Origin: a virus
Direction: 5' to 3' (one strand)
Length of the DNA: 20,039 nucleotides
IMG/VR virus record: IMGVR_UViG_3300031539_000409
Coordinates: 1 to 20,039 of that record
Both the position numbers and the translations under genes were made by a program. Below are positions 3,390 to 12,690 of the stretch, piece after piece; the stretch's first letter is position 1, and every line of letters starts with the position of its first letter. The notes below the pieces were generated by a model. It ran no database searches and was not told where the DNA came from. It saw only the letters and a list, made by a program, of their open reading frames with translations.

Positions 3390-5987
3390 ATGACTACAAT
3401 TCCCATCCTCAGTGGCGATTTCGAAATCCTGATGGATGACGAACGAACCACGGCTACGCCAGTTCTGGGCATGAAGACGGTGCGCCGCGCATCTGGCGCG
3501 ACCGCCACCGTCTACAGCACCAACGCTCTTTATTCGGCCATCGCCGATGCGGCGGACGACTTCATCGCCATGGGTTTTGAAAACCCGATGCTGCCGGTTA
3601 CGCCGAACGCCTACACGATGGAGAATATGTATTTCATCGACAGGCGCTCAACTGAATGGTTGAGTGGTGGTGCGATTGATGCTGACTGGACGATCTCGGG
3701 TACTTCCGGCATTGTTCGGAAGCCCTACACGGCTGGCACCGGTTTCGTGGATGGTGATCGTGGACGGGAGGTCACTGAAAGTGCCTCTGGTGACACCGGC
3801 ACCTTGCTCGACTACGAGGTCGAGCCTGACGGCACGTTGGTTCTCTGGATCAGGCCGGAAGACGCCAGCACGATGGCTTTCGACAGCGTGACGGGCACCA
3901 TTGGTGTCACAGGTGACGGCGGGACTGGCGTCTCCGGCACACTTGTGGCTGGAATGGAAGCCACCAACGGACAAAGCCTGTGGCCTTCGATCCAAGCGAT
4001 TGGTGCGGTGCCAGCAGGCACGGAAGTCTATCTGGTGCAGGATCGCCAGAAGATCACTGACTGGGAAGGTAACTTCCAGTGGTGGACGACAGACAACACG
4101 GTTTCGCTGGGTATCATCGATATCCTGATCCGCGTCGTCAACGCGGGCGCTACCATCGCTGATGGTGACGTGGAGGTCTTCGGGCGACGCTATACCTCGC
4201 TCTATGACAACTTCCGACTGAACATTGTCGCGGGTGGCCGCTCGGCGCTGCCGCTGGCCTCCGCCCCGGACATCAACAACACCACCGGCTACCGCACCAC
4301 CGGCACCCTTTCGACCGTTACTGGCACCTTCACGGTCGGCAACGGCATCTATCAGGGCGCGACGTGGGCGACGGCGACTGCGCGCGGCGTGATCACCGAA
4401 ACCAACACCAATACCGATCTGGAATATTACCTTGTCGGTGATCTGACCGATTTGTCCTCGACCACCTCGACGCAGGAATACGACTTTGTGACGCAGGCGG
4501 ACGGCGACGCCGATGCCACCACCGGCACCGTTGGTATCAACTTGACCGGACCAACCGACACAGCCGCCGGAGAAGGCGGAACCGTTACCATCACGCAAGG
4601 TGCGCAGACAGGCATCGATCATGACGGCAACGGCACCAACGAATTTTACTCCGTTACCGTCGATGCTCAGGGTCCGGGTGCCAACGGCGTGACTGCCGCC
4701 AAGGTCTATGAGCGCATCAAGTACGCCACAAGACGCGGCGCTACCGCAGCCGATCTTTTCGCCACGCCCACCAACATGACGGGCGAGCAGTATCGCGGCC
4801 TCGACGGTCAGTTCGAATACGACGCCAACACTGGTACGCTTGGTGCTGGTGAAGATTTATTCACCACTACAGGCGGCAATACTTGGACCGCCAAGCTGGG
4901 GGCGCAGCAGACTACGGCGTCGCCAACCTACATCACGGTCATGGACCAGCAGACTTCGCTCGATAGCGTGGTCAATGACAACGTGATTGAGGATGAGGCC
5001 GGCACCGAAGACGTGACTGTTCATACCGGTACGGTTGGGCTCAATACTTTTACCTCACCCAAGGCCAGCCCGTTCGGCACCTTCACCGGCACCGTGATCT
5101 TTGGCGCGCGCGGTATTGCCTATACCGGCTTCCATGACGACGATACCCAGAACTACATTCTGACCGACGACGGCGGCGCTATCCTGACGCCGCCGAACAC
5201 CGTCACCTTCTCGGTCACCAACACGATTGCCGGCGATAACGTCTATGTCGCTCGCGATACCGGCACGGCTGGTGTGATCGATAAGGATCAATTCGGCGGC
5301 ATCGACACTCCAGCGGCATCATATAACCGGATTGGTGATGCCCAGCTTCGGGTGGCGGGCTCCACCGACGTTCAGGTGCCGCCGGCAGGCTATGTGCGTG
5401 TGATCGTGGACCCCGGCGGGGTCGGGACGGAGGAACACACCTACGTCTACGACAGCCGCACAGTCGCCTCGAATGGCGTCTTCAATCTTCGTGTGGTTGA
5501 CGATGGTGACGGCATTGCTGACGCGACCACCTCATCTGTGCTGTTGGTCAATGCGGGCGCTGCCTTCGACACTGTGCCGAAAGCTTTGCCGGGGATGCTG
5601 GTGCAGAACACCACCCCTACTCCGAATGAGGTCTATGAGGTCGTGTCGGTCGATAGCGACAGCCAGCTTACAATCAAGCCGCTCTATGGCGGCACCACCT
5701 TCACTACCGGCAACACCTTCCAAATCAACACGGTGATCGGGCACAGTCAGGTTCCGGCGGATTACGATACCGGCGATGACATCCATGACCTGATCCTCGA
5801 TGCTGAGGCGGACGCAACCACGATGAGCAACACCTTCGTCAAGACGTTGGCTGCCAACTTCGACGTGGTGGTCAACGTGCGTCGCGGAGAAACCGGAGGC
5901 ATCATCCCCTTCACGGCAAACCCGACTGTGAACGATGCCGGCGGCTCTGCGGCGACCGTCCGCACCACTGATACGATCCACTCGTAA
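3390..5987 (+). CDS. Large conserved virion structural protein, 865 aa
   Basis: Long beta-rich protein, Gly/Thr/Asp/Val-dominated, no signal peptide or membrane segment. Residues ~1-80 form a distinct N-terminal domain containing an ADDFIAMGFENPMLPVTP segment. The centre (roughly residues 410-680) carries phrases such as AAKVYERIKYATRRGATA, GEQYRGLDGQFEYDANTG, FTSPKASPFGTFTGT and VARDTGTAGVIDKDQFGG. I recall this conserved pattern from virion proteins of uncultured marine tailed phages. A GAGG ribosome-binding site at 3381-3384 precedes ATG 3390 at good spacing. The stop TAA shares its last base with the next ATG (TAATG). A tail or appendage component is likely; the exact place in the virion cannot be read from sequence. 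Open frames on the opposite strand inside it are shadows. Confidence 0.82.
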   Translation: MTTIPILSGDFEILMDDERTTATPVLGMKTVRRASGATATVYSTNALYSAIADAADDFIAMGFENPMLPVTPNAYTMENMYFIDRRSTEWLSGGAIDADWTISGTSGIVRKPYTAGTGFVDGDRGREVTESASGDTGTLLDYEVEPDGTLVLWIRPEDASTMAFDSVTGTIGVTGDGGTGVSGTLVAGMEATNGQSLWPSIQAIGAVPAGTEVYLVQDRQKITDWEGNFQWWTTDNTVSLGIIDILIRVVNAGATIADGDVEVFGRRYTSLYDNFRLNIVAGGRSALPLASAPDINNTTGYRTTGTLSTVTGTFTVGNGIYQGATWATATARGVITETNTNTDLEYYLVGDLTDLSSTTSTQEYDFVTQADGDADATTGTVGINLTGPTDTAAGEGGTVTITQGAQTGIDHDGNGTNEFYSVTVDAQGPGANGVTAAKVYERIKYATRRGATAADLFATPTNMTGEQYRGLDGQFEYDANTGTLGAGEDLFTTTGGNTWTAKLGAQQTTASPTYITVMDQQTSLDSVVNDNVIEDEAGTEDVTVHTGTVGLNTFTSPKASPFGTFTGTVIFGARGIAYTGFHDDDTQNYILTDDGGAILTPPNTVTFSVTNTIAGDNVYVARDTGTAGVIDKDQFGGIDTPAASYNRIGDAQLRVAGSTDVQVPPAGYVRVIVDPGGVGTEEHTYVYDSRTVASNGVFNLRVVDDGDGIADATTSSVLLVNAGAAFDTVPKALPGMLVQNTTPTPNEVYEVVSVDSDSQLTIKPLYGGTTFTTGNTFQINTVIGHSQVPADYDTGDDIHDLILDAEADATTMSNTFVKTLAANFDVVVNVRRGETGGIIPFTANPTVNDAGGSAATVRTTDTIHS

Positions 5988-6604
5988 TGGGTAGGGTTAC
6001 ATCGAATATCGGCATCACTGGTGTCGAGAGCATTCGCATTGGCGGGATGCTCATATCCGATCTGCCGCTGGCTGAGGCGGCGCAGGCCAAGGCGGGGATG
6101 AAGCTGGCTGAGGACACCGAGCGTTTGTCCAAGGTCCACGGCATTCTCAAGACCGCGCCCAAACAGCCCATCGCCTACTTGCAATCGCGGATCAAGGAGG
6201 CTCAGCACAACATCAAACGCATCCGTGATCTTCGGGCGCGTGAGCAGAAGACGATTGACGAGTACCGGACCCAGATTGCGCTCTGTGAGCATCGGGATAA
6301 GGAGATTGCCAAGACCGACGATCCGGCTAAGCACAAGGAGCTTTACCGGGATTTTCCGCCCTACAACGTCGATGCCATGCGGCAGCAGATTTTGCAGTGT
6401 GAGCAGGGACAGGTTCGCTGTGACGATGTGATCGATCAGGAACACAAAGCCATAGCAACGATAAGCGATGTGCTGACCCGGTGCGCGATCCGCGACCAGC
6501 AGCTAAAGGCGCTCGGAGTTCGGATTGCCCCGAAGGGCGCAACCCTAGTGGAGGCCGTTGAATGGCAAAAGCCAAAGGAAAACGTACTCTCGCTCTCTCT
6601 GTAG
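5987..6604 (+). CDS. Coiled-coil phage protein, 205 aa
   Basis: Residues 1-35 form a short hydrophobic start (GVESIRIGGMLISDLPLAEA). From about residue 50 to 165 the protein is charged and helical with heptad-like spacing, including ERLSKVHGILK, LQSRIKEAQHNIKRIRDLRA and AIATISDVLTRCAIRDQQLK. Cys residues at about 105, 138, 146 and 167 lie in helical stretches and form no clear metal site. The start is fixed by TAATG overlap with the 865-aa gene. Its 3' end overlaps the next small gene by 43 bases in a different frame. It may be a structural, chaperone or tail-assembly protein. I do not recognise a named family. Confidence 0.78.
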   Translation: MGRVTSNIGITGVESIRIGGMLISDLPLAEAAQAKAGMKLAEDTERLSKVHGILKTAPKQPIAYLQSRIKEAQHNIKRIRDLRAREQKTIDEYRTQIALCEHRDKEIAKTDDPAKHKELYRDFPPYNVDAMRQQILQCEQGQVRCDDVIDQEHKAIATISDVLTRCAIRDQQLKALGVRIAPKGATLVEAVEWQKPKENVLSLSL

Positions 6605-6735
6605 AGACGATGAGAAAGCTTGAGGAAATCTCGCAGGGTGATGTGGAAGCGACCATCACCGGAATGATCCAGCAGCGCTGGATGATGAAGATCGGTCGCC
6701 TCCAGACAGCCAGCCGGAGACGAGGCAAGAAGTGA
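6562..6735 (+). CDS. Small basic protein, 57 aa, possible ribbon-helix-helix-like fold
   Basis: Begins MAKAKGKRTLALSVETMRKL and ends SRRRGKK. A short beta-like stretch (RTLALSV) followed by two predicted helices (ETMRKLEEIS and VEATITGMIQQRWMMKIGR) recalls ribbon-helix-helix DNA-binding proteins, but the match is weak and from memory. The gene overlaps the 205-aa gene by 43 bases. It ends in GTGA, where the GTG starts the next gene, which supports its reality. Other possibilities are a small structural or DNA-condensing peptide. Confidence 0.6.
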   Translation: MAKAKGKRTLALSVETMRKLEEISQGDVEATITGMIQQRWMMKIGRLQTASRRRGKK

Positions 6736-9860: not shown

Positions 9861-9872
9861 ACATGGCGAAGT

Positions 9873-10139
9873 ATGGAAGCTTTGATCAAGAACGCATGGC
9901 TGCAACTGGGCGCGGTGGGGATCGTTGCGATATCCGGATGGGTCGTCTCCATGATGTGGAGAAAGGACATGGCTGCTCTGCTGAAAGATGTGAAAGCGGA
10001 GAGGGAAGCCATGAGACTGGAGCGGGAAGAGTGGCGAAGGGACAGCGAGCAGCGCTCAAAAGCTTTCCAAACGGTCGTCAGCGAGAACACCAAGACGCTG
10101 GCGATCCTTGCGGAGCGAGTGAAATTTCCGCGATTGTGA
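9873..10139 (+). CDS. Holin-like small membrane protein with coiled-coil tail
   Basis: An 88-aa protein with one clear transmembrane helix at residues ~9-29 (WLQLGAVGIVAISGWVVSMM). A highly charged helical region follows (about 30-75, KAEREAMRLEREEWRRDSEQ), and then a short tail. One N-terminal membrane helix plus a coiled coil suits a small holin, an inner-membrane spanin-like protein or a membrane-anchored accessory protein. No lipobox protein is embedded in it, so a classical Rz/Rz1 pair is not supported, and no endolysin is in the window. It starts 12 bases after the previous stop. A second reading frame (9863-10225) stays open right through it, so the frame choice rests on the protein's sensible membrane and coiled-coil character. 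Confidence 0.68.
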   Translation: MEALIKNAWLQLGAVGIVAISGWVVSMMWRKDMAALLKDVKAEREAMRLEREEWRRDSEQRSKAFQTVVSENTKTLAILAERVKFPRL

Positions 10140-10225
10140 AGGCGAACTGCAAGGCTGCCAGAGCTTTCAGGGCTGCGTTGATGAAGAGGTACCCCAAAGC
10201 CAATCTAAAAGCGGCACACAGATGA
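10136..10225 (+). CDS. Possible 29-aa basic peptide
   Basis: A very short ORF, GTG start, protein KANCKAARAFRAALMKRYPK and then ANLKAAHR. It has about nine Lys/Arg residues and no acidic ones, with helix-like character. Its GTG overlaps the stop of the holin-like gene (GTGA) and its TGA overlaps the ATG of the next gene (ATGA). It therefore fills the only 82-base gap in the block using the same coupling rules as its neighbours. It could instead be the tail of the 120-aa frame starting at 9863, or noncoding. No homology is recognised. Confidence 0.38.
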   Translation: MKANCKAARAFRAALMKRYPKANLKAAHR

Positions 10226-10717: not shown

Positions 10718-11359
10718 ATGGCGCTCACCTTCACGACCCTGAAGTCAGCGATCCAAGACTATCTGGAGAACCCCGAGGCTACCTTCGTGGCTGATCTCTC
10801 GATCATCATTACGCAGGCCGAGGACCGCATTCTCCACTCCGTGGAGCTTCCCAACTTCCGTAAGCACTCCGCCGGCACCATGACCTCGGGCAATCGCTTC
10901 CTCTCGATGCCGCCTGATTTCATTCGTGTGCGATCGATCAACTACACGAGTGGCGGCGAGTTCATCCTGATGGTGCAGAAGGAATTGAGCTTCATCGAGG
11001 AGGCGTATCGGGATGCCACGGCGACAGGATTGCCGAAATACTACGCTTACTGGGATGACGATACGGTGCTGATCGGGCCGACACCGAATGCCAATCTGGT
11101 GACCGATTTGCATTATTTTTTCCGTCCGACCTCGATCACGACCTCGGGCGATGGCACCAGTTGGCTCGGCAATAACTTCGAGAGCGTGCTGCTCTACGGC
11201 AGCCTTGTGGAAGCCTACACCTTCATGAAGGGCGAGGAAGACTTGCTGGCGCTCTACACGGGGCGCTACGAGCAGGCACTCGATCTGCTGCGTGAGTTCG
11301 CGGCGCGCAAAAGCACTTCCGATATCTTCCGAAACGGTGAAACGAGGCTAAGAGCATGA
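10718..11359 (+). CDS. Head-tail adaptor / tail tubular A-like protein, 213 aa
   Basis: The helical N-terminus TTLKSAIQDYLE plus ITQAEDRILHSVELPNFRKH leads into a beta stretch (TMTSGNRFLSMPPDFIRVRS). The C-terminus is helical, including WLGNNFESVLLYGSLVEAYT and a YTGRYEQALDLLREF segment. This order is what I recall for podovirus phage adaptor (gp11-like tail tubular A) proteins, which form a ring between portal and tail nozzle. Length is also typical. The downstream 629-aa protein is a plausible partner at the nozzle. The ATG directly abuts the previous TAG, and its own TGA overlaps the next ATG (ATGA). Assignment is by recognised pattern, without an alignment. Confidence 0.75.
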   Translation: MALTFTTLKSAIQDYLENPEATFVADLSIIITQAEDRILHSVELPNFRKHSAGTMTSGNRFLSMPPDFIRVRSINYTSGGEFILMVQKELSFIEEAYRDATATGLPKYYAYWDDDTVLIGPTPNANLVTDLHYFFRPTSITTSGDGTSWLGNNFESVLLYGSLVEAYTFMKGEEDLLALYTGRYEQALDLLREFAARKSTSDIFRNGETRLRA

Positions 11360-11652
11360 TTGGCGTAAGCGGTGGCACGGCGTTAGGCAAAGCGACGGTG
11401 GTGACGACAGACTTCGATAACCACTCCCCAGACAAGTGGGCGTCCTTGGCTGTCAATAAGATCATCTCGATCTCGGTGACCACTCCCGACGCCCTGAAAT
11501 ATCAGGCGACCCAGTACAAAGCACAAATCCAAAACATCATTGCAAACACAGTTGCTTCAGCGCTGATTGCTGAACGGCAAACGATAGCGTTCAAGCTGGC
11601 TGCGATCGGCATGACCGAAGCCGCAGAACTTCTCCGAAAGGATTTAGTGTAA
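11356..11652 (+). CDS. Conserved small phage protein, 98 aa, function unknown
   Basis: A short N-terminal segment precedes [20 protein letters not shown]. Two helices follow (about residues 45-95), including [20 protein letters not shown] and [13 protein letters not shown]. Small proteins with HSPxxWA followed by a helical hairpin are common next to adaptor genes in uncultured phages. I recognise the type but know no function. The start is fixed by a four-base ATGA overlap with the adaptor gene. The TAA at 11650-11652 shares its last base with the ATC proposed as the start of the HNH gene. AAAGGA within its 3' end would be that gene's ribosome-binding site. Confidence 0.75.
11637..11642 (+). 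promoter_or_regulatory. Putative ribosome-binding site AAAGGA for the ATC-start HNH gene
   Basis: AAAGGA lies nine bases before ATC 11652. It supports initiation at that ATC, since no ATG, GTG or TTG exists in the open part of this frame, which begins after a stop at 11571-11573. Confidence 0.5.
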
Positions 11653-11816
11653 TCAAGCGGTGCCCGAAATGTGGGGAAACAAAACCGCATGTAGATCACA
11701 TCGTTCCGCTTCAGGGTCGAACGGTTACCGGCCTGCATGTTCCATGGAACCTCCGAGTGGTGACAGCCGAAGAGAACCTTCGCAAACACAACCACTTGTT
11801 GAGTAATCTGGAGTAA
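11652..11816 (+). CDS. Minimal HNH endonuclease with apparent ATC start, 54 aa
   Basis: The frame reads [20 protein letters not shown], then [20 protein letters not shown] and [13 protein letters not shown]. It shows a CxxC knuckle (Cys4, Cys7), the catalytic DH pair at 15-16, the GLHVPWNL segment with His29 and Asn33, and the final Asn42 of an HNH site. Phage HNH proteins with this core are usually longer, about 100 or more residues, so the N-terminal part is minimal or lost. The frame has no ATG, GTG or TTG between the stop at 11571-11573 and the catalytic core. The natural start is ATC 11652, at the exact place where TAATG would occur in this operon, with AAAGGA upstream. It may be translated from ATC, be a decayed gene, or reflect a base error. 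It would nick or cleave DNA if made. Confidence 0.7.
11810..11813 (+). promoter_or_regulatory. Putative ribosome-binding site GGAG for the ATC-start structural gene
   Basis: GGAG lies eight bases before ATC 11822, an ideal spacing, and overlaps the end of the HNH gene. It favours ATC 11822 over the internal TTG at 11915, which would cut off a conserved N-terminus. Confidence 0.6.
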
Positions 11817-11821
11817 ATACA

Positions 11822-12253
11822 ATCGCCATAACCCAAGCGTTATGCACCAGCTTCAAGCAGGAAATTCTTGTCGCTGAGCATGACTTCACGGCTTCGACAG
11901 GCCACACCTTCAATTTGGCGCTTTACCTGTCCACAGCCACGATGGACGCCACCACGACGGCTTACTCGGCAAGCGACGAGACCTCCGGCACCGGCTACAC
12001 CGCGACCGGCGAAATCCTCACCAGCGTCACCCCGGTCACTTCTGGCGTTACGGCTCTTTGTGACTTCGATGACAGAAGCTGGACGACGGCCTCATTCACC
12101 GCGCGCGGCGCGCTGCTCTACAACGACACGCACGCCACCAACGCGGCGGTCTGCGTGCTTGATTTCGGCAGCGACAAGACGGTCTCGACCGGCACCTTCA
12201 CGGTGCAGTTCCCGGCTGCTGATGCGAGCAACGCCATTATCAGGATCGCATAG
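11822..12253 (+). CDS. Conserved small virion protein with apparent ATC start, 143 aa
   Basis: From ATC 11822 the protein reads AITQALCTSFKQEILVAEHD, then GHTFNLALYLSTATMDATTT. It ends in SWTTASFTARGALLYNDT, VCVLDFGSDKTVSTGTFTVQ and AIIRIA. I recall this family from many phages, where it begins Met-Ala-Ile-Thr-Gln-Ala-Leu-Cys. Here the Met position is ATC, with GGAG eight bases upstream. The first conventional start in frame is TTG 11915, which would remove 31 conserved residues, including ITQALCTSFKQE. The beta-rich composition and final TFTVQFP...AIIRIA fit a small structural or tail-associated protein. The gene begins five bases after the HNH stop, and the stop is two bases before the next ATG. 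The function is otherwise unknown. Confidence 0.75.
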   Translation: MAITQALCTSFKQEILVAEHDFTASTGHTFNLALYLSTATMDATTTAYSASDETSGTGYTATGEILTSVTPVTSGVTALCDFDDRSWTTASFTARGALLYNDTHATNAAVCVLDFGSDKTVSTGTFTVQFPAADASNAIIRIA

Positions 12254-12255
12254 CC

Positions 12256-12690
12256 ATGCCGCTTGTTGAGTTCACCAAACTACGCCGCTCGCGCCCTCGT
12301 TTAGAAGCAGACACTGGGTTACCGCACCGTTGTGGTTTTCGTTATGTCGTGGATACCGATCAGGTTTTAGTCGATGGCACAGCCCCCGTGACTGAGTGGG
12401 AAATGTTTCAGATCAATATGGGCGACCATGAATGGACTGAGAATATCGAGAATGTTGGTGAGCGAACCATCCGGGGCGACGGTACAATCAACCTGCCGAC
12501 TGTCGGCGTCCGCGCAACTCAGAAGCGCGACCGTACCGGCGACGTAACTAACCCAGACAAATACGGTTTAGTGCCACGCCGCGTACCTGAGCAAATGGTT
12601 CGCCACGACCGCAAGATGCCGCTGGATATGGACCGTCAGGCACTGGCAGATCGAGGCATCATACTGCCGCCCAAAAGGGCTCAGCCATGA
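12256..12690 (+). CDS. Hypothetical phage protein, 144 aa
   Basis: A charged, Arg-rich protein (MPLVEFTKLRRSRPRLEADT). It includes PVTEWEMFQINMGDHEWTEN and ends in a basic, proline-containing tail (RVPEQMVRHDRKMPLDMDRQ, IILPPKRAQP). There is one Cys and no membrane helix or recognisable enzyme motif. The middle (RTIRGDGTINLPTVGVRATQ) looks beta-rich. No family recognised. The gene is joined on both sides: it starts two bases after the previous stop and its TGA overlaps the next ATG (ATGA). It could be a small virion or assembly protein. Confidence 0.7.
   Translation: MPLVEFTKLRRSRPRLEADTGLPHRCGFRYVVDTDQVLVDGTAPVTEWEMFQINMGDHEWTENIENVGERTIRGDGTINLPTVGVRATQKRDRTGDVTNPDKYGLVPRRVPEQMVRHDRKMPLDMDRQALADRGIILPPKRAQP

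Follow-up and report, generated by a model that had tools for sequence, protein, structure and literature searches.

Free-standing homing endonuclease genes of phages, mobE of T4 among them, are inserted between conserved genes, and mobE overlaps the gene upstream of it as UAAUGA, an arrangement for which coupled translation has been presumed (PMC2988022). The ShiLan domain, an HNH found in phage methylases (PMC11855218), is 195 aa long, starts with GTG and is contained in a gene that remains open. As for unusual start codons, infC of bacteria, whose AUU start is regulatory, and other near-cognate bacterial genes combine an ATH start with a good Shine-Dalgarno sequence. In rpoS, a natural ATG-to-ATA change left the protein level up to 5-fold lower, although ATA is cited in the same work as giving at most about 1% of the expression from ATG (PMC12864459). 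Initiation at AUC in E. coli was reported by Romero and Garcia in 1991, as cited in PMC1794132.

Our study concerns a locus that touches on both subjects, located in a window of 20,039 nucleotides (the whole stretch of viral DNA analysed, positions 1 to 20,039 of the IMG/VR record IMGVR_UViG_3300031539_000409). Its features are as follows:

11356..11652, + strand: up98, a 98-aa gene 5' of the insertion; its TAA stop (11650-11652) overlaps the first ATC as TAATC, and it has a homologue in the isolate DSL-LC04
11637..11642, + strand: AAAGGA, Shine-Dalgarno-like, inside the end of up98; by comparison with relatives, the ancestral ribosome site of the MAITQ gene
11651..11654, + strand: AATC, left copy of a 4-bp direct repeat, holding the ATC at the HNH Met/Ile position
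11652..11816, + strand: miniature HNH gene of 54 aa, with a zinc-ribbon N-terminus fused to an HNH core
11810..11813, + strand: GGAG, Shine-Dalgarno-like, eight bases 5' of the second ATC
11821..11824, + strand: AATC, right copy of the direct repeat, holding the ATC that replaces the MAITQ ATG
11822..12253, + strand: MAITQ gene (phrog_644) of 143 aa, whose product is probably a structural protein of the virion; its start position reads ATC

The HNH frame (11652-11816) and the MAITQ gene next to it (11822-12253) have no ATG, GTG or TTG 5' of their conserved parts, and an ATC occupies the expected Met position of each (11652-11654 and 11822-11824). Both absences and both codons had been described in a first-pass annotation of this DNA, and we found them at the positions that it gave, together with the AAAGGA upstream of the HNH ATC and the GGAG eight bases before the MAITQ ATC. 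The open frames extend 5' to 11574 for HNH and to 11807 for MAITQ, and both of these stretches are free of ATG, GTG and TTG. Codons one base away from ATG are limited to ACG 11574, ATC 11652 and AAG 11655 in the HNH 5' stretch, and to ATC 11822 and ATA 11828 at the MAITQ start. All the other window genes that we checked start with ATG or GTG; as the annotation had stated, TAATG overlaps are used elsewhere in the operon (at 5987, 8258 and 14889), with TGATG at other junctions. The pairing energies with the anti-Shine-Dalgarno sequence (-5.4 kcal/mol for AAAGGA and -5.9 kcal/mol for GGAG) place both sites in the stronger half of the operon. Control of the two starts by RNA hairpins found no support, since the folds were no better than those of shuffled sequences (z = -0.25 and 0.81). 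Two further regions of the window were noted: an unlisted 57-aa gene at 6562-6735 (MAKAKGKRTLALSVETMRKL...) fills the gap 5' of the GTG gene at 6732, which it overlaps as GTGA, and two open reading frames overlap in different frames at 9863-10225 and 9873-10139, the 88-aa one having a holin-like hydrophobic N-terminus.

The comparison with relatives establishes that ATC 11822 stands at the Met position of the family. The homologous start codon is ATG in all 80 relatives of a first IMG/VR set and in 129 of the 130 relatives of a wider set, where the ATG coincides with the window codon in 102 and precedes it by one codon in 27; the remaining relative uses TTG. A scan for this N-terminus across all 2.9 million IMG/VR contigs gave no match with ATA, ATC or ATT in place of the MAITQ ATG. 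Among the IMG/VR loci compared, the ATG form of this N-terminus is present in 84 and the non-ATG form is matched by the window alone, so that the change is private at the level visible in a collection from which kin very near the window may be absent. Near-identical DNA was found neither in phage records nor in IMG/VR, and a search for prophages in bacterial genomes gave one distant MAITQ relative, whose start is ATG. The annotation had compared these starts to the AUU of infC, where a non-ATG start would be kept across relatives; the likeness is limited to an ATH start behind a good Shine-Dalgarno sequence, whereas the window ATC is caused by a private insertion and no relative has ATA, ATC or ATT. 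Conserved non-ATG initiation in the MAITQ family is therefore rejected: the ATC start is the scar that one insertion left on the start codon and does not represent a conserved non-ATG system.

Evidence for the insertion comes from gene order. In relatives, an SU10-type adaptor gene is followed by up98 (about 95 aa) and MAITQ; usually the stop of up98 and the start of MAITQ overlap as TAATG, and otherwise up to 5 nt lie between them. The isolate phage DSL-LC04 shares this order, its up98 and MAITQ being 2 nt apart. None of the relatives examined, DSL-LC04 included, has an HNH gene between up98 and MAITQ, and the window HNH is thus a private insertion of ~170 bp placed exactly at the TAATG. Such optional presence at a site uninterrupted in relatives is what is expected of a free-standing homing endonuclease gene. 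The ends of the insert read TAATC and CAATC, which gives a 4-bp direct repeat, AATC...AATC. On these sequence comparisons, a single insertion has the first ATC at its left junction and the second at its right. The two are hence not independent: one event accounts for both, and two unrelated start mutations are unnecessary. For the same reason, the annotation's argument that two adjacent cases suggest real non-ATG initiation does not follow, while we agree with it that a sequencing slip at two neighbouring starts is unlikely. We consider the insertion and the loss of the standard start to be well supported by the sequences compared; the AATC repeat may have originated as a target duplication, as a copy of a pre-existing ATC or as a junction patch.

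Two other observations concern this region. In the loci L356 and L357 (about 917-1113), the two conserved halves of the adaptor gene are separated by an in-frame insertion of ~65 codons with a high content of T, S and V. In the window, third-position GC dips between 11506 and 11896: values below those of the adjoining parts occur in HNH, in the second half of up98 (0.51 versus 0.74) and over the first 25 MAITQ codons (0.64 versus 0.81). Tentatively, given the small samples, flanking DNA could have been imported together with HNH.

Compared with the systems described above, the window HNH shares with mobE-type genes the intergenic position, the UAAUG start/stop overlap and an expected low, coupled translation. 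In contrast, mobE has an AUG and is not a 54-aa miniature, and the window insertion additionally removed the ATG of the downstream gene. Like the ShiLan domain, the window HNH has no recognisable intron or intein and is out of frame with its neighbour, but it is intergenic and has no standard start.

In the 54-aa HNH, the N-terminal 12 residues of a zinc ribbon of the endonuclease-VII type run straight into an intact HNH core; ~100 residues are missing between the two, where full-length relatives have 100-120 aa. It matches the profiles phrog_26577 (1.2e-14) and phrog_1035, endonuclease VII (1.3e-11), and the proteins behind the profiles, endonuclease VII among them, are longer and have the core at their C-terminus. 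Relatives of the GLHVPWNL type mostly span 110-290 aa between stops, and several of them start with the zinc ribbon MKxCxxCxxxK, followed by roughly 100 residues and then by the VDHI core. The nine CPKCGETKP sites in IMG/VR all fall in zinc-ribbon-like proteins, most of which are recognisable HNH/endonuclease-VII-type nucleases. The core has the conserved DH, N and final N and keeps 16 of the 16 residues invariant across 14 relatives, with no visible decay, while from the full N-terminal CxxC...CxxC ribbon and its linker the first CxxC alone remains. We also considered the compact CxxCGx4HVDHI-type HNH family and rejected it: no GLHVPWNL type occurs among the compact loci listed, and the short HNH is consequently better read as what it looks like from its sequence, the product of an internal in-frame deletion. 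Structure prediction gave a poor model of the mini-protein (pLDDT 57), and a nuclease lacking the remainder of the ribbon is unlikely to home efficiently. That its ATC lies at a Met position holds less strictly than for MAITQ: the locus L391 has ATG AAG CGT at the matching position, but other zinc-ribbon proteins have an internal residue there. A former ATG may have stood at the left ATC, as L391 suggests, or this ATC may be an old internal Ile codon (the codon is GTA in L392).

The MAITQ gene belongs to phrog_644 by profile, and its sequence, fold and position beside an SU10-type adaptor agree with this family. Proteins of phrog_644 from Roseobacter, Pelagibacter, Caulobacter and Gordonia phages share sequence, fold and gene neighbourhood with it, but they have ATG and no intervening HNH, whereas the window has ATC and an HNH between MAITQ and the 98-aa gene. 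The fold is predicted with confidence (pLDDT 94), with a structured N-terminus, and is similar to one domain of a 'structural protein' from Agrobacterium phage 7-7-1. Solved structures gave no useful match by sequence or fold. In Roseobacter phage CRP-603, the MAITQ homologue adjoins a putative coat protein, and the MAITQ product is probably a virion protein. Of 14 residues that do not vary among 41 relatives it has 13, the sole exception being Met1, and the next possible start, TTG 11915, would cost 31 residues including the first helix. The shared decay that the annotation had offered as an alternative agrees with the loss of the HNH middle, but not with the intact HNH core or with a MAITQ protein from which, of the invariant residues, only Met1 is missing. 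As a separate observation, two MAITQ-type genes flank up98 in the loci L166 (2370-3547) and L167 (2567-3600), which suggests duplication of a virion-type gene.

The explanation that we favor, at about even chances, is that a relict homing-type nuclease insertion took the start of MAITQ, which is now weakly translated from ATC. A segment of ~170 bp with an endonuclease-VII/zinc-ribbon homing-type HNH gene would have entered the up98/MAITQ TAATG in this phage lineage, and an internal in-frame deletion would have cut the HNH to 54 aa. The insertion, with its AATC ends, would have taken away the MAITQ ATG and left an ATC at both junctions, the order of these events being the one that we infer. The HNH stop lies five bases 5' of ATC 11822 and the up98 stop overlaps ATC 11652, and both are good settings for termination-reinitiation. 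Ribosomes would be placed at 11822 by the GGAG, would reinitiate there after the HNH stop, or both; the HNH itself, if made at all, would presumably depend on TAATC-coupled reinitiation after up98. Two points count against translation from the ATC: AUC is weak as a start codon, and virion proteins are as a rule required in large amounts. Based on the placement of the GGAG and of the HNH stop, and on the near-cognate precedents, we nevertheless judge weak translation of MAITQ from ATC to be the most likely outcome; initiation would occur at the ATC itself, and low-level expression is plausible.

The poor quality of ATC as a start, the truncation of the HNH, which would mark a decaying locus, and the private nature of the change would also fit a second explanation, namely that the insertion knocked MAITQ out, in a lineage that is defective or dying or that does not need the protein. 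We regard this loss of expression as unlikely, though deserving of serious weight. MAITQ contains no stop or frameshift, lacks only Met1 of the residues that are constant in relatives, and still has its GGAG in a good position; if the HNH middle was lost after the insertion, there was time enough for decay to appear. In addition, the 20-kb window has no second MAITQ-like gene as a replacement, and the other structural genes examined are open.

It is important to consider that the window is a single metagenome contig available without reads, and that close kin were left out of the collections compared. Both odd bases sit on the borders of a segment that none of the relatives has, and the assembly could have been joined there; the ATCs could then result from a misassembly or from base miscalls at the ends of the HNH insert. 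Such an artefact is improbable: independent miscalls at two start codons would be very unlikely, the other TAATG starts of the window are unaffected, and the HNH frame and core are intact. Ribosomal frameshifting, by which the HNH would be a -1 extension of up98 and MAITQ likewise an extension of HNH, with no start needed, has in its favor that the HNH is in the -1 frame relative to up98, with a 26-codon open overlap, and that CCGAAAG at 11634 is a possible A-site slip. We consider it very improbable, given that there is no perfect slippery heptamer and the sites are only weak, that the usable HNH/MAITQ overlap is about three codons and has no slippery site, that relatives use separate genes with TAATG, and that no unusual RNA structure is present. 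Finally, group I introns frequently carry HNH genes, and the placement of the segment is exact, but that it leaves the RNA, by self-splicing or otherwise, and so restores a normal start is scarcely credible: no catalytic RNA core was recognised (a search of 11000-12400 against Rfam gave no match at E values up to 1), coding sequence takes up almost all of the 170 bases, which have no strong fold, and their excision between the repeats gives TAATCGCC, with no ATG.

Returning to translation of MAITQ from the ATC left by a relict insertion, its confirmation would provide a natural example in which a mobile nuclease gene has landed on a start codon and a conserved virion gene is translated from ATC. 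It would test what expression level a MAITQ-type gene needs, and whether termination-reinitiation rescues near-cognate starts in phages. A bolder possibility, to which we assign little probability, is a free-standing HNH element that targets TAATG overlaps, removes the downstream ATG and leaves a near-cognate ATC at both ends; if true, such a mobile element rewrites start codons and throttles both a virion gene and itself through weak reinitiation. More generally, odd starts in adjacent genes can be the scar of one insertion, with no translational code behind them.
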